NCBI GenBank assembly: GCA_020523885.1
Contig: JAJAPY010000004.1
Coordinates: forward strand, 166,275 to 230,274
Length of the DNA stretch: 64,000 bases
Reading direction: 5' to 3'
Origin: Candidatus Liberimonas magnetica
GTDB taxonomy: Bacteria > Elusimicrobiota > Endomicrobiia > Endomicrobiales > JAFGIL01
Under the pieces are notes generated by a model. The model saw only the letters and a program-made list of their open reading frames with translations. It was not told the DNA's origin and ran no database searches. The position numbers and the translations under genes are program-made. This document shows positions 7,201 through 50,725 of the stretch, piece by piece (the first letter of the stretch is position 1; the number at the start of each line of letters is the position of its first letter).

Positions 7201-10200
7201 AGAATTCTTAAAGCATTTGCAAAAATCATTGAAACAGTAAACAGGCTTGCCAAAATTACAAGCTCTGTTATTCCTGTCCTAAATAACATATACGTACCCA
7301 GCCCAAAAACAAGTTCTCCCACCCAGCCGGCTGGAGCCAGCCAAAACAGTTCATCTAAAAATACAGGAATCGGTGAATTATACTTAACTCCAGGCTTTAC
7401 TGGCCTAAAGTTTTTTAGAACTTGAATTTCAGCATAAGGAAAACCTAAAATCCTTGCAACAAGCCAATGGAATAGTTCATGCATAAAAACATACGGCAAC
7501 GCTATATAATATGCCATATAATTTAAAGGCTTCGGAATTATTCCAAAACCTAAATTAGTACGGCCTTGAGCTGCCCCTGCGGTTTTGGTGTCAGACTTGA
7601 CTCCATTGACTAATTGGGAGAGTACAGCGGAGGTGTCAACATCTCTTGACAATTTTTGTATAGTGACGATTAACCGGGATGCGGCAGGATCCTTTTTCAT
7701 GGTTAGGCCGTCTATGCGGTTGCCCCGGACATCTATAAAATAAATCTCATCGCCGCTTTTTTGAATGTCAACCGCACGGTCTAATACGGTATGCAGATAT
7801 CCGGCATACGTGTCCACCTCTTTGATAGCCGGCATAGCACCACTTTCTGTCACCATACGAATTTCCGTGCATGATTCGCCGTCCGCAGCTTTAGTGCAAA
7901 GCACAAATGCTTTGACAGTATTAGAGAGATCTTTGCCCTGATTTAGCGGTTCTGCGCACAGATGTGAAAATCTGCCCCATACTGCCATATGCGGAAAATG
8001 CCCTTTGAAAAACTCCCAATCCGCGCTCTTTATGGTGCCGTCCGCGATAAGTTTTTCCGCTGCAGCGAGTAACTTTTCCCATCCATCGTTGTCCTTTCCA
8101 GGATTCGTCAAGAACGCTGAGACAAGCCTTCCCAGGCGTTTCTCAAACATAGGTGCAGATTCTGCTAAAGCTTTAATTTTTCCTTTAAACTCTTCAATAC
8201 TACACCCGGTTAAAGTATTCAACTTACTTGAAATTTCAAACAGATAATCAAACGGCCGCTTACGGCACCAGCCAGTACTTGCAGAATCAAACACCCAGAA
8301 AAGAGCGTTTGCTTTAAACAGCCTTTCAAATTTTGCCTGGTCAATAATGCCTTGAGGTGCGATATAAGTCCGGAATTCAGGGTCCTCAAACAACTCATAA
8401 AATGAATCGAGAGGCAATTCCCCTATCCCATGTGATCCAAACCTGAGATGGGTCTTAATAAGCCAATATATTTCGTCACGTTCCTCAACATCCAACGCAA
8501 GATTGCCGATTATATTAAATCTTCTTATGAATTCCGCGCTTGTTATTTCATGTACTTTAGTGGTTACATGTACTACTTGTTCATCGCACTTGCCTATGTC
8601 ATGGAACAAGGCAACAAAGGCCCATTTTCTAAATACGTCAGCATTTAAAATACCCTTACCCTCGCCCATCATATCTTTAAGCCTGGCAAATACTGTGTTA
8701 TCCTCCTGGCTATATAATGCCCCTATCCCCCCTGCCTGCCGGGTATCCTGGCCATCCTGCATGCGGTACATCTGAAGGAAAGCACAAAAAACACGCAATG
8801 TGTGGTTAGTAACGATATCTAATGCCGTCTTCTCGCCTTCGGTTAATTTGTCATTTTTAATCTGCACGGCAACGTCCGTAAATAGTTCTGTAAGCAAGGT
8901 TTTTAGTTCTGTTTTTTCAAGCGTTTTTGCCAACTCATCAATGTTAGCCGGTAACTCATCTAAACTATTGACTCCAAAGATATCCAATACTTTATCCGGC
9001 TCGCAGTAACCAAGTACCTGCCTGACAACACTATCCATGTCTCTTGCATCAGAGGATTTTTTGGGGTGAGCAGAGTCGAGTTTTCCGTTATCGATTGTTC
9101 CTTTTTCAGCATTATAGGTATATTCGGCTCCCACATCGCCCTGGATGGCAACGGCTATGGTGTACGTTTTTAAAGTTGCAGTTGGCAATACTGTTATGGC
9201 AATACCAGTGTCTGATGGAAAAGACTGTTTAAATAAATCATTGACCTCGGAAATCTTTCCTTTCTTAAGTAGTTCCTGAATTGCATTTATTTTTAACACT
9301 ATTTCTGCATATTCCCCGGCTGCTGTAACTTTGTCCCATTTTCCATTATGCTGTGCAAGCAAATCAGTAAGCTGTTTCAGTGCCAGGGCAGTAATGGGTT
9401 GGTGGGAAGGAATAAAGCTAGTTTTTATAGGTTCGGCTGATTCTTTGCGCAGAGCGTCTGTTTCTTTCTCCAATAACTCCTGGTATATGGTTTCTGCAGA
9501 GTCAGTGCCCTGGGTAACATTTGGAGTGATAATCACATAGGAGAGGTTGCGCTCTTTCATAAGACCGGTAAGTCCCTGGGTGTGGAAACCGCCTGTAACC
9601 AGCACCACAATTTCAGACTTGCTCAGCAGCTCTGAAATTGGGTTCTGAGTCCGAGGTTCGGTGCGTCCCTGGGCTATAAAGCGGAAGTTTGGAGTAAGTT
9701 CTACCTGTCCCCTGCCCCCTGCCCTCTTCTGTATATCGCAGTTATCAAGCAGGCATTCGTTGCGGGTAACGTTTACCTTATAGTACTCGCCAAGGAGCGC
9801 AATGTCTTTATCAAACTCTGAAAGCTTATAATTACCGACATACTTAGCCCATAAAAGCTCAAATTTAGGGAAATTTGCCAGGACATAATTATAATCGTCA
9901 AATGAGACTTTATAGCCGATGAAATCCCTTAGATACTTTACAAATCCTGCCAAAAACACTATATCGCGCTCGCTCTGCTTGAGTATAAGGCGAAAATGTA
10001 TTTCGTTTTCCAGGCGCTGCTCTTCGTTAATGAGTTCAAGAGGGTTAACCGCACCAGTTAGCGCCATGTGCTCGAAGAACCTCTTTAAATTGGGATATTC
10101 AGCTGTCAGAGAAGGGTTCTGTGCCGCTATCTTTGAGAGGTACAAATATAGTTCATTAGCTTTTGAGAAGTTAGAGGTATTGTTTAGGAGCATTTGATAG

Positions 10201-11711
10201 GTGCTGTATGGCAGTTTCTGCTTGAGCAAAGCTATGAATGCCTGGAGTTCAACACCTATCTTTTTAAAATTAAGTTCTTTGGCAACATTGAATGTTCTTG
10301 AAAAACTAGAGACATTTTTAAAGAGCGCCAGGTCTATATCAAGCTTCTGCGAGTAATCTTCTATCTTTTTATAATATTGTTGAGGCTTTATTGTGCCGTC
10401 TTTATATTTCTGAACAAGTCTTTCAAATTTCTTGTTTTTGGAGTTGTAGTACCGTTCTTTTAGGATATCGATATCGGATGAAAGGGTATCTACATGCTCC
10501 TGCAGGGATTTCTGTTTTTGAATAATAGATTGTAATCTCAAGAGGTTTTCAGTGTGTAGTTTTCTATTTTCCACGCCAACAAGCAGGTTTGGCTTGCCTG
10601 ACTGGGCTGAGTAATACTCAGGGCCTGTGAGTTTGCCGCTGTCAATAAGAGCATCCAGTATCTTGTTGCGTATATCCTGGTCCCTTACACCTGTAAGCCA
10701 GGATGTATCGAGAGCCCCGCTTGCACCCTCTACGTACACCTGTTTAAGGTTGTACTTCTGATCCAGGCTTGCAAGTATCTTTGCAATATTTTTCTGGACC
10801 TCAGGATGGCAGTGCAGGTCCTGGATGTTTATTACAACCTGTTTTGGCAGGTTGGTATCTGCGAAAGCTCCGTCCAAATTACCTGATGGCACGCTAGACT
10901 CGAAGCTAATGTCCTTGCTTTCAGCCTCTGTATGGGTTTCCGTAATCCGCCCAACTTGTGCTGGAAGTATAAAGCTGTCAAAGATCGTTTTTACATCCGG
11001 GACACTGCTCTTCCTTGGTTCAAGCGCTCCGTAAGCTGGCTGCGCTATCACCGATGTCAATATAAAACATATACAGGTAATCAAAGATATTATCTTTTTA
11101 AGGGTGCATACCCCGCATGACCTTCGGAAATCACGCGCTCTTTGAGCAATAAAAAAACCTAACCCAAAAGTATAGGTTAGGCTGATCTTCCTTATACGAG
11201 AATACATAAGAACGCTGTCAATTGCCCCGCGGGGAAGAATATAAAACAGTAATAAAAACAATAAAAAGATCAGCGGTGGGTCATGCGGAATGCGGGACAG
11301 AGTTGATTGTAATTTAACAATGCAAGTTAAACCTCGGGTTTGCAATACTAAGTTGGTTATAGTTGAAGTCAGGAGATTGAATTTGACGTTTTTTGAATTC
11401 TCAAGTCTTAGTGCAGTGCCTGCTATTCTTGGCTGGGATGAAGCAGCATGCGAACTTTTCCGTTTTGAAGATGTAGTCTTTAGGGGTATTTTAAACGGAG
11501 AGTTGCTTAAAACCATTTCAAGAAGTGCAGTTGATGCCTTGGATAGATAGTTTGTTATCTGAAAGCTTGACTTGAACACATCGCCTGCACTGTCAAAAGC
11601 GGTATTCGGGCACACATCCGGTAATGCAGCCAAAGGGCTTATCATCTGAACTATAAAACAAATAATGAGTGCTCCAATTAATATAAATTTCATAAAATAA
11701 ATATTGTCCAT
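1224..11711 (-). CDS. giant multidomain exported/membrane protein
   Basis: An uninterrupted 3495-codon frame. Hydrophobic segments lie at about 8-30, 146-160 and 205-222. Visible blocks in order: about 290-340, a QDLHCH / YVEGASG block, and about 700-715 its TGGFHTQGLT partner, together resembling the TraB/ChaN-like extracytoplasmic folds I associate with candidate-phylum giant proteins; about 950-1110, an HD domain (HDIGK near 1038); about 1400-1500, an M50-like membrane metalloprotease region (HELFHW near 1411 plus several TM segments); near 1660, a second HExxN sequence (HEINE); about 2400-2560, a DUF218/YdcF-like region (VVCGHND, then ITGGVGKG); and about 2700-3495, low-similarity alpha/beta repeats with no recognised family. 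The N-terminus is uncertain: a better signal peptide (KKIISL to QPAYGA, about 205-228) lies inside, directly after an RNA-like structure at 11113-11288. Overall function is unknown; envelope location and zinc or metal chemistry are inferred from the motifs. Confidence 0.8.
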   Translation of the reverse strand: MDNIYFMKFILIGALIICFIVQMISPLAALPDVCPNTAFDSAGDVFKSSFQITNYLSKASTALLEMVLSNSPFKIPLKTTSSKRKSSHAASSQPRIAGTALRLENSKNVKFNLLTSTITNLVLQTRGLTCIVKLQSTLSRIPHDPPLIFLLFLLLFYILPRGAIDSVLMYSRIRKISLTYTFGLGFFIAQRARDFRRSCGVCTLKKIISLITCICFILTSVIAQPAYGALEPRKSSVPDVKTIFDSFILPAQVGRITETHTEAESKDISFESSVPSGNLDGAFADTNLPKQVVINIQDLHCHPEVQKNIAKILASLDQKYNLKQVYVEGASGALDTSWLTGVRDQDIRNKILDALIDSGKLTGPEYYSAQSGKPNLLVGVENRKLHTENLLRLQSIIQKQKSLQEHVDTLSSDIDILKERYYNSKNKKFERLVQKYKDGTIKPQQYYKKIEDYSQKLDIDLALFKNVSSFSRTFNVAKELNFKKIGVELQAFIALLKQKLPYSTYQMLLNNTSNFSKANELYLYLSKIAAQNPSLTAEYPNLKRFFEHMALTGAVNPLELINEEQRLENEIHFRLILKQSERDIVFLAGFVKYLRDFIGYKVSFDDYNYVLANFPKFELLWAKYVGNYKLSEFDKDIALLGEYYKVNVTRNECLLDNCDIQKRAGGRGQVELTPNFRFIAQGRTEPRTQNPISELLSKSEIVVLVTGGFHTQGLTGLMKERNLSYVIITPNVTQGTDSAETIYQELLEKETDALRKESAEPIKTSFIPSHQPITALALKQLTDLLAQHNGKWDKVTAAGEYAEIVLKINAIQELLKKGKISEVNDLFKQSFPSDTGIAITVLPTATLKTYTIAVAIQGDVGAEYTYNAEKGTIDNGKLDSAHPKKSSDARDMDSVVRQVLGYCEPDKVLDIFGVNSLDELPANIDELAKTLEKTELKTLLTELFTDVAVQIKNDKLTEGEKTALDIVTNHTLRVFCAFLQMYRMQDGQDTRQAGGIGALYSQEDNTVFARLKDMMGEGKGILNADVFRKWAFVALFHDIGKCDEQVVHVTTKVHEITSAEFIRRFNIIGNLALDVEERDEIYWLIKTHLRFGSHGIGELPLDSFYELFEDPEFRTYIAPQGIIDQAKFERLFKANALFWVFDSASTGWCRKRPFDYLFEISSKLNTLTGCSIEEFKGKIKALAESAPMFEKRLGRLVSAFLTNPGKDNDGWEKLLAAAEKLIADGTIKSADWEFFKGHFPHMAVWGRFSHLCAEPLNQGKDLSNTVKAFVLCTKAADGESCTEIRMVTESGAMPAIKEVDTYAGYLHTVLDRAVDIQKSGDEIYFIDVRGNRIDGLTMKKDPAASRLIVTIQKLSRDVDTSAVLSQLVNGVKSDTKTAGAAQGRTNLGFGIIPKPLNYMAYYIALPYVFMHELFHWLVARILGFPYAEIQVLKNFRPVKPGVKYNSPIPVFLDELFWLAPAGWVGELVFGLGTYMLFRTGITELVILASLFTVSMIFANALRILGGEKNDDLEYFKLAIKYRLDESRKKEVIKVDSSPNQGLGRNMYSIILQVLGPVAQLLLAGKIQEIAGNMGFAILAEIPKERVYIKQNETKVIINGVEYPVKIRECKGDILYIDQTTVGFATINKEESAQGSIVIDVAHGFSEYFNPKERETAIIHEINESVARKGDNRDFNYYWLNEKYRNIQSQKELDEFDALVKDPERIKQLVAGLGTDEFIESYHRYIHHTAEAKPEYADESNLIKKSDDALAHIIARTTFKVNDSMRKILEYLFPGKDFTSVVQASIYSLAGRSAAAKQRKIVKQNVEMLKKIDIHSLGAENWFSRVHVYMDRNGQIVSIGEKPEQDTIELILNIKRTGRGISIKDFSFSWRQPLSQSQHMIVAETENMLNLDFEAKKTTVELSKTNGSSEVILDNDKKIYLVIPGKSMVTMNIEDGKIYMVFQGKDFQGKKVQVPTKVRSFTVGHFILNISKINDGCFRVRISLADKRPGKSIVNVVSFKADFRENMQISENGFTEGSVDRFEKKFSGDMQIIIEPKQRNLLPGLISLKDGKITFSVHSPKGDKNTNLEFGRSYNIGPLGVWFANNNGVYTVQIRPNADTRVTFIPGYEKTKPKIVSKSGIESVMNYIKVRYPDQAENIIAKWETLPETEKERYNKEAAEIYAPIAEMEQVEKARKGGRESIEAFIDKHGPTTAEERKILINGMYSIDYFLMRLAECSVPALAGVKGIEILAEFLANQIMSGDKFGKEWLGKEGIEYLRSQGIDTKEELAEIIRKNVMLGLEMFPDIGLSSLSISQLANIAAHAAWNLSHKKGERLWSWEGNAPNTQWGSTTGDNAGRASVANRLNVDPSNIYSERVRAELQMHMENPSPLQAGLAQAEKLLALLAGKNLEASAAKENVQADVMVVCGHNDIEVILDAIEVYNSMAKKPKLIITGGVGKGTPELIASVFKRLGQEKFSSLTGTQLTEAQIAGWVEEAAGIETKYAQPGFKPFYSKIQELGITEAKLIRLLFEYELEIKLATQPGESQTCFIEDQSRSSFENAVKSIDILQKLAQASSRPLSVIINQAPYAQLRTFKMFEKLCRKAGIKNTSLASYTTTQTSRVIPIRELLLEFWRLVLFVGCGDIEFEGGITNSMLTPYWDAFFSLLTSNGNSKEIQESLRGLALGLNKPGPDGKSAPVYPTSQNLKERLKLNQAEPYQAMLSQLIDWAYDDTFKPLNLSLTQVQAINTFSSGRLGISAGAVVLVAVKAMVRPKEAVSKAVRVILDLPYPNTLLGALDGKACVAFGEVAAEWLNWSGVPVIEITPKVYTETEIKETGGMEDYTADGENQVPFVVITVNGKKVSLRIFAHKWVDGRVELQLAVPDELPEGLTPQAVAEALNSSSAATAGARWSLLLTLVEHRGKEALLAGENSFRQRLLGSSRDAENVFDGIVVNIGSDPVNLPEKSELEVTSGNLSLSFPELKDIEARLRYAGVMVAASGNNSDIQASQNVDCVYQPEDTQRLVQAYGQARRVRGAGVEPQLDIIVELAQQGLTVEKLPDIVAQSSKLWSGKVKNAIVAGLIKPDASLNPDAVPAGTIPKLEDAQQQANFNEFKKGLSLTDQQAYALWCARGYKLGLTVPDPEQVNTAVEGVMKAADYGESGIVVSFGYKVSADDITSFMNRFKDAQQTAAQAEQARIPAGFVTLSLPVEVLCTEGLVVRMKELGIRPQAIVAIGHEGSINALDKDVSLRFVLPETKEVTADEVTAALNTAIGSGRNICADSDLPVQVNQRSRITLQQFADTLKHAFTSAKLSGDALALDQQLKGTRVFSKEEIPSIENARTLIAAVSNYLTQDKAARIAGMNETVEIVRQFSSYGIKRALERYDAGGDASVKESAYLEIMNLLIGAGIAVVTRGEEFTEDKALVAYGQLKLIKETENAQVQEEAKEISLEAVTKFKDAVIAEIATTPITKILQSRGLTAEALLQGFVYYRKFPGLIERVKPSFDAAAINAIQSAA
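11113..11288 (-). ncRNA. nested stem structure with internal intrinsic-terminator hairpin, inside the 5' part of the giant ORF
   Basis: On the minus strand CCGCATGACC (11288-11279) pairs with GGTCATGCGG (11122-11113), enclosing a second perfect pair, GCTGATCTT (11274-11266) with AAGATCAGC (11189-11181). Inside the outer stem there is also a CCCCGCGGGG palindrome (11225-11234) and a textbook terminator hairpin, CCTAACC / GGTTAGG (11181-11158), followed by seven T. A TTGACA box with a TATAAG 19 bases further on precedes the hairpin. This is the layout of a structured attenuator leader or a small palindromic element. I do not recognise an RNA family. Confidence 0.5.
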
Positions 11712-14290: not shown

Positions 14291-14323
14291 ATAATAACAA
14301 TATTTGAACTTACTTCTATGTTC

Positions 14324-14394
14324 AGGGCGATGGAACTCACCTATTAACCGCCGTAAAGAAACCGATCTTAAAGGCTAATGGTTCCTACAAACTC
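14324..14394 (+). ncRNA. fluoride (crcB-motif) riboswitch
   Basis: The leader shows the crcB-motif signature in order: GGGCGATGG, then the pseudoknot strand CACCT followed by ATTAA, a hairpin, then CTAATGGTTCCTACA. P1 pairs GGAACT (14332-14337) with GGTTCC (14380-14385). The pseudoknot GGGCG (14325-14329) with CACCT (14338-14342) has one C-A mismatch. The second hairpin pairs about 14350-14358 with 14367-14375 with two mismatches. By eye it aligns well with the B. cereus crcB aptamer (ATGG, ATTAAC, TGATG and CCTACA blocks). The expression platform is unclear: a T run at 14419-14425 follows a weak AAGTA / TGCTT stem. Fluoride riboswitches are known mainly upstream of crcB/fluc and eriC, and also near formate-hydrogenlyase-type genes, which fits the operon here. 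Confidence 0.7.
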
Positions 14395-14441
14395 AAGTAT
14401 CTAAAATTATCGAAGTGCTTTTTTTCTTTTGGAGTCTTGAA

Positions 14442-16292
14442 ATGATTCATCAGCTGTTTTTTTCTATACCTAAACTATTTACAGCCGACCCTTTGTCTCT
14501 TTTTTTTGTTTTTGTGATCCTGCTTATATCAGCCCCTTCAGCGATCTATTCGATAAATTACTTAAAAGGCGAGTATTCCGGAAAAAAAATAATTTATGCC
14601 TGGGTGATGCTTTTTGCCTTTATAGTATCGATGCTTCTGGTAGTCACTTTCAACAACGCTTTCTTCTTCTTATTAGCCTGGGAGATCATGTCCCTGGTAT
14701 CTTTTTTCCTGGTGGTCTTTGACACCGGACAATGGAAATCCGTAAAAGCCGGAATTATATACATAATAATGACGCATCTAGGTACAGCTTTTATAACCGC
14801 AGCCTTTGTCCTGATGTACAGGCACGCTCATTCGTTCGATTTTGCGGCTATGAAACAGGCTTGCCGGATAATGCCTCAAAACACAAAGGACCTGTTGTTT
14901 TTGTTGTTCCTGGCCGGTTTTGGAACAAAAGCCGGGATAGTGCCGCTCCATATCTGGCTGCCGTACGCGCACCCGCAGGCGCCAAGCCATATATCAAGCC
15001 TTATGTCCGGCGTGATGATAAAAACAGCGATATACGGGCTCATAAGATTTGTTATCATTATTCTCGGGGTAAACACTTTCTGGTGGGGCAACCTCATACT
15101 TATAATTGCCGCTGTTTCCTGCCTTGTAGGCGTAATGTACGCACTTATGGAACACGACTTAAAACGCCTCCTTGCATACCACAGCGTAGAAAATATCGGA
15201 ATAATTCTTCTTGGGATAGGCGCATCTATGGTGTTTTTAAGTTTAAACATGCCTGTCCCTGCCATACTTGCGATGTCCGCAGGCTTGTATCATTTAATGA
15301 ACCATGCAGTATTTAAAAGCCTTCTTTTCCTATGCGCAGGAAGCGTTTATAAAAGCACTGGATCAAAGGACATGGAAAAACTCGGAGGGCTCATTAAGAC
15401 AATGCCCTGGACAGCTTTTTCTTTTCTTATAGGTTCTATGGCGATATCCGCACTGCCTCCGCTAAACGGGTTTATAAGCGAGTGGCTTACTCTTCAGGCC
15501 CTTTTTGCAGGCATCCTGCACGGAGCCTCTGGAAGTACAAGGGTCCTTATGTCCGTCTATGCATCCGCCCTTGCACTTACAGGAGGGCTTGCCGCAGCAT
15601 GCTTTGTAAAAGCGTTCGGGATAACCTTTCTTGCCGTGCCCAGAAGCGAACAGGCAAAAAATGCGAAGGAAGTCCCTTCCACAATGGTTTATGTTACGGT
15701 TTCTATGTCCGTTCTGTGCATTTCTTTGGGGATTTTTGCCGTTCCGGTCTTAAAGCTTCTTAGCGAGATCTCAGGATATATAACAGGCGCAAATACGGCA
15801 GGTTTAAGTTTTTCGCTCAACAACTTTATAATAACACCCCAAAACAACAGCGGTATATTCCTGTCCGGCCCGCTTATGGCGGCTGTGCTGGCCTTGGTCA
15901 TCATGACTGCGGGTTTTTCGGCATACCTGATACTTGGCAAAAGAAAAGTAACGGCCGCAAGCACCTGGGGCTGCGGGTATTACAACCTTGATTCAAGAAC
16001 TGAGTATACAGCCACTGCATTTTCAAAACCGTTCCGGATAGCTTTGAATTTCTTCTACAGGCCGTACAGAAAAACAGAAGAAGTAAAAGATTCTTATTAC
16101 CATATCAAATCCCGCAAATACGAAACTTCGATCACTCCGGTATTTAAAAATTATATATATAAATCCATATTAAAGAGGGTTTTCGGAACTGCAAACCTTT
16201 TAAGAAGGCTCCAGTCCGGAAGCATTCATTTTTACCTGGCGTATATTTTCATTGCCCTTGTTCTGTTGCTGGTTTTTATAAACAAATTCTAG
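14442..16292 (+). CDS. hydrogenase-4 component B-like proton-translocating membrane subunit (HyfB/NuoL family)
   Basis: 616 residues from the ATG at 14442, chosen over an upstream GTG because GGAG lies 7 bases before it. A polytopic membrane protein of the Mrp-antiporter/NuoL-M-N family with the conserved core (SLVSFFLVV, then GFGTKAGIVPLHIWLPYAHPQAPSHIS, YHSVENIGIILLG and HLMNHAVFKSLLFLCAG); the Lys and His of those motifs form the ion channel. The C-terminal part has the extra helices and WGCGY segment typical of HyfB/HycC. It is the first gene of a six-gene operon under a putative fluoride riboswitch. The predicted role is H+ or Na+ translocation coupled to the soluble arm. Confidence 0.9.
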   Translation: MIHQLFFSIPKLFTADPLSLFFVFVILLISAPSAIYSINYLKGEYSGKKIIYAWVMLFAFIVSMLLVVTFNNAFFFLLAWEIMSLVSFFLVVFDTGQWKSVKAGIIYIIMTHLGTAFITAAFVLMYRHAHSFDFAAMKQACRIMPQNTKDLLFLLFLAGFGTKAGIVPLHIWLPYAHPQAPSHISSLMSGVMIKTAIYGLIRFVIIILGVNTFWWGNLILIIAAVSCLVGVMYALMEHDLKRLLAYHSVENIGIILLGIGASMVFLSLNMPVPAILAMSAGLYHLMNHAVFKSLLFLCAGSVYKSTGSKDMEKLGGLIKTMPWTAFSFLIGSMAISALPPLNGFISEWLTLQALFAGILHGASGSTRVLMSVYASALALTGGLAAACFVKAFGITFLAVPRSEQAKNAKEVPSTMVYVTVSMSVLCISLGIFAVPVLKLLSEISGYITGANTAGLSFSLNNFIITPQNNSGIFLSGPLMAAVLALVIMTAGFSAYLILGKRKVTAASTWGCGYYNLDSRTEYTATAFSKPFRIALNFFYRPYRKTEEVKDSYYHIKSRKYETSITPVFKNYIYKSILKRVFGTANLLRRLQSGSIHFYLAYIFIALVLLLVFINKF

Positions 16293-41775: not shown

Positions 41776-43155
41776 TCATGCCTTTTTTTCCAGCGGTAAA
41801 CTTTCCTTTTTCGGTTCTATAAATAGATTTATAACAACCGTTGTACCTTTGCCTTTAACACTTTCTATTTGAAGAGTCCCTTTGTGCAGATTAATTATTC
41901 TTTTTGCGGCGGTCAGGCTCAAGCCCTTCCTGCCTTTTTTTGTAGAAAAGTAAGGCTGGAATATTTTTTTGATATGCGTCTCTGAAATACCCGTACCGGT
42001 ATCCGCTATTTTAGCGGTTATCATTTCATTGTTCTCATCAAAATTTGTAAACAAAGTCAGCTGGCCTCCTTCAGGCATAGCCTCAAGCGAGTTCTGCAGC
42101 AAATAGCCAACAGCCTCATTAAGCAGGTTCTTATCTCCGTCAAAAACATTTATTTTTGTCCCAAATTCTTTTTTTATTGAAACATTTTGTATTTTGAATT
42201 TATTCTCAAATGACTGCAGGTTTTCTTCTAAAAGTTCATTAATATCAAGTTTCTTTATGCTCATCTCAGGTATTCTTGCAAATTTCAGGAACTCTTCTAT
42301 CGAACCGAGCATGTCCTGAACATTGGTATCGACTATTTTCAGCTGTTCTTCCATCTCGTCTTCCATTTTATAATTAGAGATACACAGCTGGATCGTACCG
42401 GACATGATGCCCAGGTAATTACGCACCCGATGGGCAAACCCTCTTGCCAGGTCTTCTAATATTACAAAATGCTCTTTTTCCCTGTCTTTTAAACTCTTGA
42501 GGCGATTATCCATAAAAGATGACATCTGGCTCAGTTCTTTTTCTACCTTTTGCCATCTTTCTTTTTCAACTGCAAGATAGATTTCTTTTTCCTGTAAAGC
42601 TTTTGCCACCTCGGCCTTTTCAGCTTCGATTTTTTCAAGGCGGGCTTTTATCTTTTCTTCGGCTTCCTTTACAGCCTCATTCTGCACCCTTATATCTATA
42701 TGCTCCTGTACAGCTTTGCCTGCAGGCAGTACGCTTATCCCTGAAACTTCGCTAAGCTGGGATTTCAGGTCTTTGTTCTCTTTTTCAAGAGATTCAAACT
42801 TTGTTTCCCACTGGAACCTTGCCTTATCAAGAGAAGTTTCTATTTCTTTGGTCTTGAGCCTGTCTTCCAGTAAAAGCTTTTCCTGTTCCCATCTATTTTC
42901 AAGGTTCTTTAATTGCCAGGAAAGTTCTTTTATAAGCATCTCATGGTTTTGAGTCTGTGTTTGGAGCGATTTCTTTTCGTCTTCCTTGGTCTCAAGCTTA
43001 CGCTGCCAGAGCATCTGCTCTTCGTCGTAACGCCTTTTCCAGAAATCTGCGACGCTGATGGCATCTACAACCTGCATCATCTCAGAATCTACTGGCATTT
43101 CTGTTTGTATTTTTTGCAGTTCTTCCTGTACCCAATCCCATGCATCTTCTACCAT
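41776..43155 (-). CDS. cytoplasmic histidine kinase with long coiled-coil N-terminus
   Basis: 459 residues and no TM segment. Residues about 35-230 are a nearly continuous coiled coil (heptads rich in Lys, Glu, Gln, Leu). The H-box FAHRVRNYLGIM (His242) starts the dimerisation domain, and about 340-450 is the ATPase: N-box LLQNSLEAM, G1 IADTGTGIS, F-box IFQPYFST, G2 KGLSLTAAKRI. No PAS, GAF or receiver domain is recognisable; the sensor, if any, is the coiled coil or a partner protein. The partners most likely on position are the receivers at 38857-41762. Confidence 0.88.
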   Translation of the reverse strand: MVEDAWDWVQEELQKIQTEMPVDSEMMQVVDAISVADFWKRRYDEEQMLWQRKLETKEDEKKSLQTQTQNHEMLIKELSWQLKNLENRWEQEKLLLEDRLKTKEIETSLDKARFQWETKFESLEKENKDLKSQLSEVSGISVLPAGKAVQEHIDIRVQNEAVKEAEEKIKARLEKIEAEKAEVAKALQEKEIYLAVEKERWQKVEKELSQMSSFMDNRLKSLKDREKEHFVILEDLARGFAHRVRNYLGIMSGTIQLCISNYKMEDEMEEQLKIVDTNVQDMLGSIEEFLKFARIPEMSIKKLDINELLEENLQSFENKFKIQNVSIKKEFGTKINVFDGDKNLLNEAVGYLLQNSLEAMPEGGQLTLFTNFDENNEMITAKIADTGTGISETHIKKIFQPYFSTKKGRKGLSLTAAKRIINLHKGTLQIESVKGKGTTVVINLFIEPKKESLPLEKKA

Positions 43156-43183: not shown

Positions 43184-43265
43184 AGCGTAGAGCGTATAGC
43201 GGATAGTCACAAAACAAATTATAATTTTGGTTTTCCTATACGCTAAACGCTATCCGCTCTACGCT
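43184..43265. repeat. large imperfect hairpin between LysM protein and kinase genes
   Basis: AGCGTAGAGCGTATAGCGGATAG (two halves: 43184-43194, 43195-43206) is complementary to CGCTATCCGCTCTACGCT at 43248-43265 with an internal 5-base gap, and to part of 43236-43248. It could end or process the minus-strand transcript after the LysM gene. It has no T run. Confidence 0.45.
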
Positions 43266-45261
43266 ATTGTGGTATCGTTATTTCCTGTCCTGGTGCTACC
43301 TGCCCTCCGGTAACTTTGTCTTTATTTGCCTTATAAATATCTTTCCAGCGGCTGGGATCATTATAGTATTTCTGAGCTATGTTCTGCAAGTTTTCGCCCG
43401 GTTTTACGATGTGGGTCTTTGGCCCTGTGTTTTCCGCTTTGTTATTGGGACTTTTTGCACTTTCTTTCTTTAATTCCTTGGGTTTAGGAGTTTCAATTAA
43501 GACTGGCACAGGTTTGACCTCGATTAATTGGATTGGGGTATCAACGTCGACTCTTTTTACGGGCACGTTTTCAGGTATTGGCTCCTGGCCCGGGGTAGGG
43601 GGTGCTGTAGTGATGGACTGGGACAAAGAGGGTATAATAAGCACCTGGTTCGGGGTGAGAGCTCCGCCGCGGCCGATATCTTCTTTGTTTGCCTGATAAA
43701 TATTGTTCCAATATTTTTCGTCGCCATAATATTCCCTTGAAACCGACTGCAGGGTATCGCCTTTACGCACTATATGACTTCTTTGAACACTGCCTTCCTG
43801 AAGGGTTGTTTTCTTTCTTTCTTCATACCGTATCTTCTTTGCGTCTGATTCTGCCGCTTTTATCCTTTCCCTGATCCTTAAGGTCGATTCTTCTATCAGT
43901 ATCTCTTCTAATTTCTTTTTTTCCGACTGCACATCACTAAGGTTCTTTTTTAAACCTGAAACCTCATCTTTCAGGTTGGCATAGTAAAGTTCCAGGCTCC
44001 CGGGTTCAAGTTCTTCTTTCGGCTGGCCTCCGAACCTGCAGACTAAACTTAACCTGTGAGACCCGCCTATATCTTTTATCCCGACTAAAGGTATCTGGAA
44101 TGCATAATCAATCTGCGTCCCGATAAAATTCAAAGAAAAACCTACTCCGGAATTCACATAATTGTTGCCGCCCATTTTCAGCCCGCCGCGTAAGGCGAAT
44201 GTTTCACTTAACCATTTTTCTAGGCCAAAGGCTGTATACCACTTGTTTGAATTGTTTATACCATCGATAGCCCATTTAATGCTCTTTTGCCTCCAGCCGA
44301 ACCCCAGCCTGTAAGTCGCCTGCAATTGATCAGTATCCTTTAAACCCAGATCCGGCTGGTTTATATCGCTGGCCGAGAACCCGAAGAAGAAACGAGGAAG
44401 TATATTGTAAATCAATCCGGCATCTACACTGTAATTTGAGACAGTGTCCTTTTTACCGTAATCAAAAACCGGGCTTTTAACCAGATAATCGTCAATATTG
44501 TATTTTTCTGACAGGAATTTCAGGTTTATGCCGTATGCCAGCCTTTCTTTATAAGATTTTCCGAAACTAAGATAATAGGAGGACTCCTCGTAATAGTCTG
44601 TAAGCGAAAAATTCCGCCAGCCAAAAGCAAAAGTGCCGAAATGCCTGATAACGGTCTTATCTTTTGTTATATCGCTGTCTTTAGGCGCTGCTATGCCGCT
44701 TGAAGAAACTGCTGCGAAAGCTGTGCTTGAAACTGATACGCTTGATAACGTACCGTCTTTCTTAGGAGACTTATTTGTATTGAGCAGCAGCAGCAGTTTT
44801 TCTTTTGCTTTATTTTTATCGTCTATGAATACCCTGGCCTTTTTTACTTTTCTAGTTCTTATTTTTTTTGGGAATTTATTTATCGCGAGCTTTCCGGACT
44901 CCGTTATGAAAAATGGAAAAACAGCCGAGATAAAAGAAGTGCTTAGGTCAGAATTATCGTCCAAGCCTACCCATAATTTACCGTAATCGGCCCCTATCTG
45001 TGATTGCCTGATAAAACCAAGTCCTGCCGGGTTATAATAGATACAAAACGGATCGTCGGCCAGAGCAGTAAACGCATTTCCCATACCCATAGCCCGGGCA
45101 CCTGCCCCTGTATCATCATAATCAGCGACTACAGCGGTAAGCGATAAGCTGTAAGTTATAAGTGAAACAACAATAAAAATGAAAAAGCTGAAGGAATGGC
45201 GAATAAAAGTTCTCCTTGGCCTATTAAAGATATATTTCAATGATTCTAATTTCTTTTTCAT
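43264..45261 (-). CDS. PorV-like outer-membrane barrel fused to coiled coil and two LysM domains
   Basis: 665 residues. An unusually long basic N-terminal region precedes a signal/TM segment (about 22-46). Then comes a barrel start typical of PorV/UPF0164 proteins (GAGARAMGMGNAFTALADDPFCIYYNPAGLGFI, two blocks near 51-85). Barrel strands continue to about 410, a charged coiled coil follows (about 420-490), and two LysM modules finish the protein (VRKGDTLQSVSREYYGDEKYW near 500; VKPGENLQNIAQKYYNDPSRW near 615). LysM binds peptidoglycan, so the protein may anchor the outer membrane to the wall. It starts 53 bases after the FN3 gene and shares its riboswitch-controlled transcript. Confidence 0.82.
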   Translation of the reverse strand: MKKKLESLKYIFNRPRRTFIRHSFSFFIFIVVSLITYSLSLTAVVADYDDTGAGARAMGMGNAFTALADDPFCIYYNPAGLGFIRQSQIGADYGKLWVGLDDNSDLSTSFISAVFPFFITESGKLAINKFPKKIRTRKVKKARVFIDDKNKAKEKLLLLLNTNKSPKKDGTLSSVSVSSTAFAAVSSSGIAAPKDSDITKDKTVIRHFGTFAFGWRNFSLTDYYEESSYYLSFGKSYKERLAYGINLKFLSEKYNIDDYLVKSPVFDYGKKDTVSNYSVDAGLIYNILPRFFFGFSASDINQPDLGLKDTDQLQATYRLGFGWRQKSIKWAIDGINNSNKWYTAFGLEKWLSETFALRGGLKMGGNNYVNSGVGFSLNFIGTQIDYAFQIPLVGIKDIGGSHRLSLVCRFGGQPKEELEPGSLELYYANLKDEVSGLKKNLSDVQSEKKKLEEILIEESTLRIRERIKAAESDAKKIRYEERKKTTLQEGSVQRSHIVRKGDTLQSVSREYYGDEKYWNNIYQANKEDIGRGGALTPNQVLIIPSLSQSITTAPPTPGQEPIPENVPVKRVDVDTPIQLIEVKPVPVLIETPKPKELKKESAKSPNNKAENTGPKTHIVKPGENLQNIAQKYYNDPSRWKDIYKANKDKVTGGQVAPGQEITIPQ

Positions 45262-45314: not shown

Positions 45315-48300
45315 CTATCTTACCACCATGATAGTACCGTTGATCACTTTCCCTTCGGCCTCTATCTGGTAAATATAAACTCCTTTATGAGCTTCTTTAC
45401 CGTCCCATTCTAATATCACGGTAGTGTTTGTCGGGTCACTTAACGCTTTTAGGTCAGCGACAAATTCTCCCTTCAGGTCATAAACTTTGCCAAGGACCTT
45501 GTCTCCGGTCGGATTATTTATTATGAATGTCATTTTTTCGTAAGGTGAAATTCCCGGCGTAAATACCTTTTTGGGAGTCAGGCTTGCAAGGCCAAAACCA
45601 GCCGCAAGGCTTGTCTGCCTCAACTGGAATGCTCCGGGCTTAATGGCAAGCGCTATAAATTTCTTTTTTGTAGTGTTCGCATATCCGCCGACTTTTATAT
45701 ATTCCACACCGTTATCCCAGTAAAGTGCCAGGGTGTTCGGATTAAATTGTATTGAACGTGCCTTACGCGCTATGGACTGGGATATGTCAGAATAATTGAA
45801 CTCCATGCTTAAGGGTGTATCGAACTTATAATCTGAGACTTTGTTCAACTGGGCGTCGATTATATTCACGTCATAGACCCTCAGTATGGTATCGGTCTCC
45901 GAGCTTGTTTTACGCTCGATATTCAGGCTTAAATTCTTATGCAAGGCATTATTTTCTGCTAGAAGGTTTTTTGACACATCTTTAGGAACAACGACCAGAA
46001 CTTCGTTGTCGCTTGAAACGATGTTCAGCTGGTCCGGGTTAAGTGATTCAAGGATCATCGAGTTCTGGCTTTCTATACCCGAAGTATCCATTGAACGGAC
46101 AAGATAATAGAACATCCCGCCTTGAGTTGTTGTATCTGTCCACTGGTTTGTACCGCTCGATATATAGACTATTGGCGTAGTATAGTTGAAAGCCGAAAGA
46201 GAAAGAGCACGATAAATCTTATACCCCGAAAGGTCATCTATATCCGTGCCGTCTTCGTTTTTAACAGCAGTACTCCAAAACAGGGTGAAATTCTGCTGAT
46301 TATCCGACAAGTCGCCCTTTAATCCGCTTGGCGCCACCGGTATGTTTAATACCGGCACTGTAAACGTAAAACTGGAAATACATATTGTTTTTAACCCTTT
46401 CCTGTCGTTTGAAACGACCTTCCACCAGTACTGCCTGTTTTCAAGGAGCCTTTTTGGAAGTGCCAGGCTTGCCGTTGAAAGAGAAGTTGTCGAAAAATAA
46501 ATACTTGAAAAATCAGAAATACTCGATATATATAAACTATACCTTACATAATCGTTTAGATCTGTATCTACTGACTCACTCCAGCTGAAAGATGGTGTTT
46601 TTGTGGTTATTAAACCTGCGTTTGCAGGAGAAGTCAAATCAAACGTTTTCGGAGGGTTGTTGGTCATCGATATTATAAAAACACCTACAGAAGTAAATGT
46701 GTATGCTGTGTCCACCTGGTTTGGAGGAATGCTCTGGTCAAACCCGCTTACCCTCACTCTCCAATAATATGTAGACTGGTCAAGAAGAGGGCTGTCAGAA
46801 AGCGGTTGATAATATGTATCCGTCCCTATGGGTATAGTAGGAGCGCCTTCAAACGTTGGGACAACAGAATACTGCAGGAAATACCTTATTGTGTCAACGG
46901 GGTCAGCATCAGCAGCAGAGTTCCATTTGAACAAAGGCGTTAAAGTATCTGTTATTTTAATGCTGCCGGTAGGACTTATCAACTCATAACCACTCCAAAC
47001 AGGCAGTTCTTTTATTGCATCAGTATAAAACATCAGCCTTTGATTTGACGTTTTAACCATCCCGTAAGGCCCTACTGCATCGATTTGCCAATAATACTTG
47101 TGATTATCAGACGGGACAACAAGAGATGTTGTATTATTCGTAAGCCCTGTCAGGGTTTTGCTCGACACAAAATCAGAAAACAATGAATAACTTAAATTAT
47201 ATTTTACTTTTTCGTCAACTGCAGGGTCAGGCTGGGTTGTTTTATCCCACGTAAAGTTTATCAGGTTAGCAGTAAAACGGGTATTGTTGGCTGGAGATAC
47301 CAGGTTAAAAGCAACCGGTTGTTGGAGCACAGCATTTACCCTGAAATAAAATGTTGTAGAGCAAAGAGTAGTTTTTAAACCGTCTGAGGCCCAGACTCTC
47401 CAATAATATGTTGCATTTTCATCAAGCTGCGGTGTGACAAAAGACCTTGCGCTCTGCCAGCTGGATGAGCTAAAACTAATGAAATTGCTGTATATTGAGT
47501 AATCAACCCTGTAACTGATCGTATCTCCCGGATCCTTATCCGTAGACCTGCTCCAGGAAAGAGACGGTGTAGCTATATTTGTGATATTTGCATTGGACGG
47601 CGAAACCAGGTTAAACGATGAAGGAGCGCTATTGACCGCATTTATCCTTACTGCCCAGGACTGCGATGACCAGGTGCTTATACTGTCTAAATCTGAAACT
47701 TTCACTTTCCAGTAATAGGTAACATCTTCGGTCAAAGCTGTACTTGGAGTAAAGGTCAGGCTGGCCCCTGCATTGCCTTGGACAACGTTGCCTGTGACAC
47801 CGACTGTGGTGGAATAATATAATGTGTAGGAAAGAGTGTCTCCTGAGGAGGTATCACTATCTGTAGAATTGTTCCAGGAAAAAACCGGCTTACTACTGCC
47901 TACTATTAAATAATTTGTGGGCGAGGTTAGGTTAAATGCAGACGGAGGACTATTTCTGGGGCACGCGGAAGGAGTGGTTACAGAAATATTTGACCAGTTA
48001 CCCCTTTCATCAGCCGTACGAATGCTGAAATAATAAGTGGTTTTGTTGCTTAAATTTGTTGGTGTCGTATAAGAACAAACCGTACCTTTAACAACACTGG
48101 TCGATATAGTTATCACAGGAAAAGGAGAGGACATATTTGAATGCGATGAATATTTTATCTCAAATTTTCCTCCGGATATATTATTCGTGTAACCGTCATC
48201 GCCGGGGCTGACCCAGGAAAGGCTTACCTTTCTCCATCCGGGTTGTACGCTGAACTTTGTAATTGCTCCGGGCAGTGTTACGTCAACTTGCGCATAAGTT

Positions 48301-50333
48301 GTTGCTCCTTTTGATATACCGGACCAGTTATTGGCTTCATCTGCAAGCCATACCCTGAAATAGTATGTCAAGCCGCTGGTCAATCCTGTTACGGTATAAT
48401 TATTTACAACGCCTTGAGCTGTTGACGTTGTCCTGTAGACATGAGTGTAGGCATTGGGGTTTGTACTGAAAACCGGCGACGGGGTATTCGTCCAATCTAT
48501 TCGCAGTTTTCCATTTACAATGGCTCCGCTTACGACATTGTCGCCCGTGTTTGTCCATCTTAAAGAAACCTTCCCTTCAGTTGCTCCGGGGAGTGCGGTA
48601 ATTGCTGAAATTCTAGCAGGGGAGGTCGAATCAGGTGTCCGTACTAATCCACTAGTTTCTGAAAGCGTAGACTCCAGAGCATTGCCGCTAAAATGTCCCT
48701 GGGCTATGTTAATACCCTTATCACTACAGGACACTTTAAAATAATAGGAATTTTCAGCAACAAGTCCCTTATACATATAAAAAGTAGTGGGATGATTTAC
48801 TTCCTTATTATTAATATACACAAACTGCGAAAATGGAGGAATTGATGCGATGTATATTTTATATTTATCCCTGTCATCTGTGCCGGTAAAAGACGGGTTA
48901 GACCAGGCAATGTTCGCAGAATAAGAGCTTTTTACCACAGCTGTAATGTTTGTCGGCGAATTGGGCTGTTTATCCAGAGTAGCCGTAGATTTTGCAACAG
49001 ACATTATAGAATAATTGCCTACATTATCTCTTGCTTTTAAGGCAAACGAATATGTCGCTCCGGGATAAAGCCCTGCTCCTGTCAGAGTATATCGTTCATT
49101 CGCTCCTGACACACTTTGTCCTTTAGGCGCAACCAGAGACGATGCAACCGTGCCAAAATTCTGGGATGTTATCGTGTAAGTAGCCCATTTAAGAAGGTAA
49201 TCCGTGCATATCCCGTTCGTCCCGTCATTGCCTGATGAAAGCCATTCGAGCATAACATCCCCGTCAAGCGCCATGCCTGTGCTTGTGCCCAAAAGCAGCG
49301 GCTGAGACGGAGGAATGCTTAAAGTAGTTGTAGAGTAAGAAACTTTTTCTGCGATGACTTCTTCCGGGAAACCGTTATTATTCGTTGCCCATACCTTATA
49401 ATCATAACTTGCTTTTTCGGTCAAGCCGGAATCATAATGCGTGGTTGAACGGACAAGGTTCATAACTTTTGTAAAAGACGGGAACGGGCCGCCTTTGATT
49501 TGAACTGAGTACCTGGTTTGCGGGGAGTTGCTGTTCGTATCCCATTGTATGGCAAGGCTTGAAACGGTGTTAGCTGTTACGTTTATATTCGTCGGAGGAT
49601 TCGCAAAAGTAAAACTTGATGTTATTATCCCTGAATCCCTGCTTATGAGCCCGTTAAATGCCTGTAGATAAATCGAAGCTGTGCTGTTAGGTGTCAGGTT
49701 TTCCTGTATCCAGAACGTTGTGCTTGCGGATAAATCTACGGAAATGTTCGTTGAACTTGTAGCGCTTTTTACGCGGTAACCAGCCGCATTTGGAGATAGG
49801 TTCCAAACCCAGACCACCGATGTTTTATAAACAGCGAACTTATCATATCTAAAAGTTGGTGCAGCTATATTTACATAAGGATAATTAAAATTAGCTGTAT
49901 TTACCGATTCTACATCTATCGATGACTTCCAAACCCCGTACACTCCCTCATTATCGCTTGCCTTAAGAGCAAAATAATAGGTTACCCCAGGTGACAAATT
50001 ACTTATATCTCTTGTTTCTATAGTCCCACTTGAAGCTAAATTTGTCCAGCTTAATGTATCATAAGTATTACCCCACCAACTATAATTTGAATTAGTGATC
50101 GGTCTTGTAGCATATTTAAGCTCATACGCAGGATAAATCTGATATTGCGATGGAGTAGACAGGCCGTCTCTTGTATCCGGGACTGTCCAGACCAATGTGA
50201 TCTTGCCTTCAGGCACGCCACCCATAGAAAGAGCCGTAAGGTTTGAAATGCTTTCGGGAAAAGCATATCCCCTCATACTAAAAAACATTAAAATTATTGA
50301 AATTACAATTAAACTTTTAATAACAGCTTTCAT
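45315..50333 (-). CDS. large secreted FN3-repeat surface protein with FlgD/T9SS-like C-terminal domain
   Basis: 1672 residues. Signal peptide about 1-24 (MKAVIKSLIVISIILMFFSMRGYA). More than ten fibronectin type III-like repeats follow; conserved features include W at strand B, and YYFALKA / YYFRVWL / YYWRVRVS at strand F. The middle repeats (about 800-1300) start with FNLTSP / FDLTSPAN and include FSWNNSTD-like segments. The last ~75 residues (about 1595-1672: VLGKVYDLKGEFVADLKALSD, WDGKEAHKGVYIYQIEAEGKVINGTIMVVR) resemble FlgD-Ig/type IX secretion C-terminal domains. Expression is predicted to be gated by the GEMM riboswitch and terminator upstream. Adhesion or cell-surface scaffolding is likely. 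Confidence 0.9.
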   Translation of the reverse strand: MKAVIKSLIVISIILMFFSMRGYAFPESISNLTALSMGGVPEGKITLVWTVPDTRDGLSTPSQYQIYPAYELKYATRPITNSNYSWWGNTYDTLSWTNLASSGTIETRDISNLSPGVTYYFALKASDNEGVYGVWKSSIDVESVNTANFNYPYVNIAAPTFRYDKFAVYKTSVVWVWNLSPNAAGYRVKSATSSTNISVDLSASTTFWIQENLTPNSTASIYLQAFNGLISRDSGIITSSFTFANPPTNINVTANTVSSLAIQWDTNSNSPQTRYSVQIKGGPFPSFTKVMNLVRSTTHYDSGLTEKASYDYKVWATNNNGFPEEVIAEKVSYSTTTLSIPPSQPLLLGTSTGMALDGDVMLEWLSSGNDGTNGICTDYLLKWATYTITSQNFGTVASSLVAPKGQSVSGANERYTLTGAGLYPGATYSFALKARDNVGNYSIMSVAKSTATLDKQPNSPTNITAVVKSSYSANIAWSNPSFTGTDDRDKYKIYIASIPPFSQFVYINNKEVNHPTTFYMYKGLVAENSYYFKVSCSDKGINIAQGHFSGNALESTLSETSGLVRTPDSTSPARISAITALPGATEGKVSLRWTNTGDNVVSGAIVNGKLRIDWTNTPSPVFSTNPNAYTHVYRTTSTAQGVVNNYTVTGLTSGLTYYFRVWLADEANNWSGISKGATTYAQVDVTLPGAITKFSVQPGWRKVSLSWVSPGDDGYTNNISGGKFEIKYSSHSNMSSPFPVITISTSVVKGTVCSYTTPTNLSNKTTYYFSIRTADERGNWSNISVTTPSACPRNSPPSAFNLTSPTNYLIVGSSKPVFSWNNSTDSDTSSGDTLSYTLYYSTTVGVTGNVVQGNAGASLTFTPSTALTEDVTYYWKVKVSDLDSISTWSSQSWAVRINAVNSAPSSFNLVSPSNANITNIATPSLSWSRSTDKDPGDTISYRVDYSIYSNFISFSSSSWQSARSFVTPQLDENATYYWRVWASDGLKTTLCSTTFYFRVNAVLQQPVAFNLVSPANNTRFTANLINFTWDKTTQPDPAVDEKVKYNLSYSLFSDFVSSKTLTGLTNNTTSLVVPSDNHKYYWQIDAVGPYGMVKTSNQRLMFYTDAIKELPVWSGYELISPTGSIKITDTLTPLFKWNSAADADPVDTIRYFLQYSVVPTFEGAPTIPIGTDTYYQPLSDSPLLDQSTYYWRVRVSGFDQSIPPNQVDTAYTFTSVGVFIISMTNNPPKTFDLTSPANAGLITTKTPSFSWSESVDTDLNDYVRYSLYISSISDFSSIYFSTTSLSTASLALPKRLLENRQYWWKVVSNDRKGLKTICISSFTFTVPVLNIPVAPSGLKGDLSDNQQNFTLFWSTAVKNEDGTDIDDLSGYKIYRALSLSAFNYTTPIVYISSGTNQWTDTTTQGGMFYYLVRSMDTSGIESQNSMILESLNPDQLNIVSSDNEVLVVVPKDVSKNLLAENNALHKNLSLNIERKTSSETDTILRVYDVNIIDAQLNKVSDYKFDTPLSMEFNYSDISQSIARKARSIQFNPNTLALYWDNGVEYIKVGGYANTTKKKFIALAIKPGAFQLRQTSLAAGFGLASLTPKKVFTPGISPYEKMTFIINNPTGDKVLGKVYDLKGEFVADLKALSDPTNTTVILEWDGKEAHKGVYIYQIEAEGKVINGTIMVVR

Positions 50334-50430
50334 TTAGTCCCATTATTAGTTTAGGTTATTTTATTAAGTATTTCAATGTGCTTTTTCGCACATTAAAAAT
50401 ATATATATTATGTTTTTCCGGTTTAAAATA

Positions 50431-50461
50431 AAAAAACTACCGTTAACTGCTCTGCGGTAGC
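50431..50461 (-). terminator. intrinsic terminator in the FN3 leader (riboswitch expression platform)
   Basis: On the minus strand CTACCG and CGGTAG (50461-50456 and 50443-50438) close a 12-base loop and are followed by TTTTTTTATTTT. It lies 98 bases before the FN3 start codon and downstream of the aptamer at 50588-50682, so it can only act on the FN3 transcript. A second T run (TTTTTTAC, about 50472-50465) follows GGCAAC, which is complementary to the aptamer 3' strand GTTGCC. Confidence 0.75.
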
Positions 50462-50587
50462 CTGTAAAAAAGTTGCCAAAATTGATTAACACCAATTTAG
50501 AGATTTTGGTATTATTAATCTGATAAGGCCCGAGATAACGTAAATCAGCCCTTTATGCCCATAAAGGCATTATTTAATCAGATTTTT

Positions 50588-50682
50588 ATTTCGGCAACCC
50601 GGCTGGCGTGTCCCGATAATTCCCGAGATTTAGCCCCGCAGCTTTGCGTCCTCCGATTTCTCAGAGTTTGCTATTATCGTTT
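50588..50682 (-). ncRNA. GEMM-I cyclic dinucleotide riboswitch (possibly cGAMP type)
   Basis: Read on the minus strand, the signature elements appear in order: AGCAAAC, then P2 CTCTGA-GAAA-TCGGAG (perfect apart from one G-T pair, with a GAAA tetraloop), then GACGCAAAGC, then P3 (GCTG / CAGC with the GGGCTAAA receptor-like segment), and finally GCCGGGTTGCCGAA. P1 pairs about 50680-50674 (CGATAAT) with the GTTGCCG end. This closely follows the GEMM-I consensus. By my alignment the base equivalent to Vc2 G20 is A, which would favour 3',3'-cGAMP (GEMM-Ib) over c-di-GMP; that numbering was done by eye. It precedes the FN3 surface-protein gene. Confidence 0.88.
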
Positions 50683-50696
50683 TTTAAACTATTAAT

Positions 50697-50725
50697 ACTA
50701 TTGCAGAAACTTTCAATTTTGTCAA
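50697..50725 (-). promoter_or_regulatory. promoter of the riboswitch-controlled surface-protein operon
   Basis: A perfect TTGACA on the minus strand (50725-50720) is followed after 17 bases by AATAGT (or after 19 by TAGTAT). Initiation near 50688 would place the aptamer at the 5' end of the transcript. Confidence 0.6.

Follow-up and report, generated by a model that had tools for sequence, protein, structure and literature searches.

In the genome of Candidatus Liberimonas magnetica, a class I c-di-GMP (GEMM-I) riboswitch of the transcription-termination type most likely precedes an operon that encodes a giant FN3-repeat protein, either surface-exposed or secreted, and an envelope protein of the PorV-like/LysM type. 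The window analyzed here is a stretch of 64,000 nucleotides from this genome, and the segment 50682-50590 of its minus strand is a genuine GEMM-I aptamer. Rfam cmscan matches it to RF01051 with 77.5 bits (gathering score, 35; E = 1.7e-13) over model positions 1 to 87 of 87, that is, as a full-length aptamer with a GAAA tetraloop, P2 and P3 arms, and a 3' CC. The match occupies a 5' leader that runs from a promoter-like site through predicted alternative helices to the ATG at 50333, the start of the FN3 gene. The features of the leader and operon, all on the minus strand, are as follows.

50697-50725, minus: promoter-like site, -35 TTGACA, 17-nt spacer, -10 AATAGT, with TG before the -10; a consensus match only
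50590-50682, minus: GEMM-I (c-di-GMP-I) aptamer, RF01051, 77.5 bits, E = 1.7e-13
50672, minus: equivalent of ligand-contacting Vc2 G20, here A (cmscan alignment, model column 11, just 5' of the P2 GC)
50645, minus: equivalent of Vc2 A47, conserved as A (position from the RF01051 alignment)
50594, minus: equivalent of Vc2 C92, the Watson-Crick partner of the ligand, conserved as C; sequestered in the alternative helix
50588-50599, minus: 5' arm of alternative helix T1, GGUUGCCGAAAU, overlapping the aptamer 3' strand (predicted fold)
50483-50587, minus: interposed segment, with hairpins inside the T1 helix (predicted fold)
50466-50482, minus: 3' arm of T1, AUUUUGGCAACU (50482-50471), with a U6 tract (predicted fold)
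50430-50463, minus: second terminator-like hairpin T2, CTACCG/CGGTAG (50460-50437), 12-nt loop, U7, -10.3 kcal/mol
45315-50333, minus: 1672-aa FN3/Ig-repeat protein with a weak type IX sorting-domain-like C terminus (TIGR04183, 21.3 bits, below the cut-off of 23)
43264-45261, minus: PorV/PorP-like barrel that also has two LysM domains (64.2 bits to NCBIfam PorV, under the cut-off of 90)
41776-43155, minus: histidine kinase-like protein, the next same-strand gene; operon membership uncertain

The first-pass annotation had described a complete GEMM-I aptamer with a GAAA tetraloop and with A in place of Vc2 G20, and the covariance search on the minus strand bears out both points, the score lying well above the gathering score and the alignment placing A at 50672. 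The base of P2 is of the consensus, Vc2-like type (G50671-C50646, then C50670-G50647), and a U precedes the A20 equivalent. The A47 equivalent, which in Vc2 stacks between the ligand bases, is retained. The surface-protein operon proposed downstream, with its FN3 gene and LysM/PorV barrel, is likewise upheld. The proposed promoter ahead of the aptamer is present as a promoter-like TTGACA-17-AATAGT sequence ending 14 bases upstream of it; we rate this site as a consensus match only, because the 651-base region scanned holds 7 promoter-like sites versus 1.8 ± 1.5 in shuffled sequences.

Two further features of the window may be recorded here. A fluoride riboswitch (14317-14394, plus strand; RF01734, 38.2 bits, just above the cut-off of 34) lies directly 5' of the gene at 14415-16292, whose product has domains of the Mrp antiporter/complex I type, and for a 3495-aa open reading frame (1224-11711, minus strand) no Pfam match was obtained at E = 0.001.

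Position 20 and the orthologous operons

The A at position 20 had been taken as the hallmark of the cGAMP-sensing GEMM-Ib subclass, a reading that is not supported by comparison with other aptamers: A20 is common in GEMM-I, an RNA with A at this position answers c-di-GMP, and orthologous operons carry G. By pattern scan, A20 GEMM-I aptamers occur in at least 117 stretches of the genome collection; among those found, most are from Firmicutes (Clostridia, Bacilli), with others from Proteobacteria, Chloroflexi, Omnitrophota, and further groups. The window's own CGATAATAGCAAAC recurs exactly in 17 of the 83 A20 aptamers read, and U-A is the commonest form (51 of 83 A20 aptamers from other phyla). 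Within the window's phylum, a hand count of pattern matches gave 13 A20 aptamers whose P2 arms are complementary versus at least 43 with G20, so that A20 makes up at most about a fifth of the pattern-recognizable GEMM-I aptamers there, an upper estimate.

In Geobacter Gmet_0970, A20 sets cGAMP selectivity and the A20G swap confers c-di-GMP selectivity (PMC6456294); because of this reversal, A20 does matter in some backgrounds. Vc2 G20 corresponds to G11 in Cd1 and Bc1, and in Cd1 the G11A change was without large effect (PMC9262584). In the Bc2 RNA of Bacillus thuringiensis, according to the section of PMC4933901 that deals with it, the G20 equivalent is A11, c-di-GMP causes read-through and turns on a collagen adhesin gene, and A11T abolishes the response to c-di-GMP; cGAMP is absent among the other ligands named for Bc2 in the passage concerned (PMC4933901). 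A at position 20 by itself is thus no mark of cGAMP sensing, which corrects a tempting shortcut.

The operon itself has relatives in three other genera. The window's PorV/LysM protein (P0002) shares 55% identity with its relative in genome G001, 53% with that in G007, and 54% with that in G004, and in each of these genomes a GEMM-I aptamer and an FN3 protein of 1680 to 1778 aa adjoin the PorV/LysM gene. G001 and G007 have a TTGACA box in the equivalent position. All three orthologous aptamers have G20, and for this reason A20 is most simply read as a change in the window's lineage, in an operon that has kept its GEMM-I control. We take it to be a lineage-specific change that is tolerated and that may tune affinity or relax selectivity, and not as evidence for cGAMP.

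Relaxed selectivity leads to the alternative that we consider a real, if minority, possibility, namely a promiscuous aptamer that would bind both c-di-GMP and cGAMP in vitro and meet only c-di-GMP in the cell. The G20A mutant of the Vc2-type c-di-GMP-I aptamer also binds cGAMP (PMC7288161; PMC6274999), and position 20 has been described as a selectivity factor and not a hard filter (PMC9262584). This alternative overlaps with the c-di-GMP riboswitch that we favor, the sole difference lying in the ligands that the RNA would bind once purified.

Expression platform and direction of the switch

The first-pass annotation had placed a terminator behind the aptamer, with a downstream segment able to pair with the aptamer's end, and both are recovered as predicted folds. 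GGUUGCCGAAAU, which includes the aptamer 3' strand, and AUUUUGGCAACU form 12 pairs followed directly by a U run, and this T1 helix is part of the minimum-free-energy fold; T2 follows as a separate hairpin (our terminator pattern scan skipped both because of their loop length). For the best pairing of the aptamer 3' strand, 27 of 500 shuffled platforms do as well, which makes it no more than moderately unusual, and the single-helix shuffle tests in the window are weak overall (27/500 and 32/500 as good). Across the window and its orthologues, individual alternative helices beat shuffles only modestly (about 5 to 9% as good), with the exception of the P3 strand in G004.

In the model that we prefer, ligand binding would make the aptamer 3' strand (with C92) and the P3 5' strand unavailable to the platform and would thereby choose between terminator and read-through folds; we infer that the RNA works as a switch. 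Its direction is finely balanced. With the T1 helix and its U6 tract, the switch would be of the ON type, like that reported for Geobacter pilM. The 5' arm of T2 is also predicted to be within reach of the aptamer's 3' strand and its P3 5' strand, and aptamer strands blocking that arm, the design of the orthologues, would make an OFF switch. For folds up to T2, the T1-containing structure (-79.1 kcal/mol) and the T2-forced structure (-78.0 kcal/mol) are nearly equal, and therefore energies do not decide the direction. We lean very slightly toward OFF because the platform design of the orthologues predicts it. In G001 and G007 the aptamer 3' strand can pair with the terminator 5' arm (23 and 44 of 500 shuffles as good, respectively), and in G004 the P3 5' strand can do so at -32.6 kcal/mol, a value equalled by 0 of 500 shuffles; these pairings predict OFF switches in all three. 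The terminator-like hairpins of G001 and G004 are related in sequence to T2, and that of G007 is a different one. The unit of GEMM-I aptamer, giant FN3 protein, and PorV/LysM protein is conserved across four genera from two families, in which the platforms differ, and the orthologous operons form a useful natural series on how one aptamer can be wired to terminators in different ways.

Two terminator-like elements in one leader also bring to mind a decayed or locked riboswitch, in which dual terminators would hold the operon off with or without ligand. This has been reported for Bc1, which carries a dual terminator and shows hardly any response in vivo (PMC11218506). The T1 fold has an advantage of about 16 kcal/mol over the aptamer fold with free junctions, which fits such a lock. 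We nevertheless consider it unlikely, given an aptamer core that is intact (77.5 bits) and a link between aptamer and operon that is kept across genera.

Second-messenger enzymes and the cGAMP alternative

The 3.39-Mb genome (97.8% complete) has 10 GGDEF domain matches. Hypr enzymes carry Ser at the selectivity position, as in GmGacA, where Ser348 and Asp374 are spaced by 26 residues (PMC6456294). In all 10 matches the residue at this position (344 position) is Asp; it lies 26 residues from the GGDEF motif in 8 and 30 in 2, and both of the latter are fused to a receiver domain as judged by eye. The search for hybrid (Hypr) GGDEF proteins suggested by the first-pass annotation thus returned none among the 10 matches, with the proviso that an enzyme may have been missed in a genome 97.8% complete. 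No SMODS-type nucleotidyltransferase was found in the genome either, which speaks against cGAMP from a CD-NTase of that kind, and so for the types searched (GGDEF, SMODS) no known kind of cGAMP synthase is visible. By their residues, the GGDEF domains appear to be of the canonical c-di-GMP-making type. We infer that c-di-GMP, made by such enzymes, would be the ligand that binds the aptamer. Four further genomes that carry A20 aptamers (two from Firmicutes, two from the window's phylum) likewise have no Hypr Ser/Thr among their motif-readable GGDEF domains; two of the four genomes have one Asn-bearing GGDEF each among these domains.

The genome has five GEMM-I aptamers, and the four besides that of the window are all G20. 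They form two tandem pairs. One (L151 4514-4793, contig G000:C11) precedes an open reading frame at least 1745 aa long, and its first aptamer scores best as the c-di-GMP-I-GGC variant (RF03167); the other (L152 5142-5582, G000:C10:22141-22581) has G20 in both aptamers, the second with a long P3 insertion. A group I intron (L151 4033-4265, G000:C11; RF00028, 74.6 bits) lies within a tRNA gene, in its anticodon loop; run with introns permitted, ARAGORN identifies the gene as tRNA-Thr(tgt) with a 230-nt intron, the exact splice site and hence the anticodon being uncertain; a link between this intron and the tandem GEMM-I aptamers was dropped on account of its place in the tRNA gene.

These findings bear most directly on the proposal that the window's aptamer is a GEMM-Ib RNA, in which A20 would select 3',3'-cGAMP for control of the adhesin-like protein and the LysM/PorV barrel. 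The aptamer does have A at the G20 equivalent with a U before it, as in the crystallized Geobacter cGAMP aptamer, whose listed ligand contacts include U13 and A14 (PMC7288161), and A20G reverses the selectivity of the Geobacter aptamer (PMC6456294). Against this, the genome yielded neither Hypr nor SMODS synthase, U-A is the form met most often among the A20 aptamers read from other phyla, and the orthologous operons have G20. The P2 base also differs, being G-C then C-G in the window and C-G (C15-G40; PMC6274999) then U-G (the lower GU pair; PMC9262584) in Geobacter, a comparison with one reference aptamer, made through papers describing its structure, that may not define the whole subclass. 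We therefore regard cGAMP control of this operon as very improbable. A ligand change at the step from G20 to A is possible but would need a source of the ligand, and none was found. Weaker still by a shade is a cGAMP-selective GEMM-I that works without a Hypr GGDEF, fed by an unrecognized synthase, in which the position 20 change would have replaced c-di-GMP control within one genus.

Comparison with known riboswitches

The window's RNA shares with Vc2-type c-di-GMP-I aptamers (RF01051) the full consensus fold, conserved equivalents of A47 and C92, a GAAA tetraloop, and the G-C/C-G base of P2; it differs in having A instead of G at position 20 and a termination platform with two U-tract elements. 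Bc2 of Bacillus thuringiensis, as described in the section of PMC4933901 devoted to it, likewise combines A at the G20 equivalent with an adhesin-type target gene and a terminator platform, but it comes from another phylum, has a single terminator, and is an ON switch. With the GEMM-Ib RNAs of Geobacter (pilM, Gmet_0970), the window's RNA has A20 in common, along with a downstream arm, followed by U, that can capture the 3' strand including the C75/C92 equivalent, much as the pilM terminator captures the ligand-pairing C (PMC9262584); it is set apart from them by its P2 base, by a genome in which no Hypr GGDEF was found, and by having no identified electron-transfer target. Bc1 of Bacillus thuringiensis (PMC11218506) has a similarly long platform with two terminators, whereas its G20 equivalent is G, and the first element in the window, unlike in Bc1, uses the aptamer's own 3' strand. 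The RNA is thus most likely an additional member of the known GEMM-I class.
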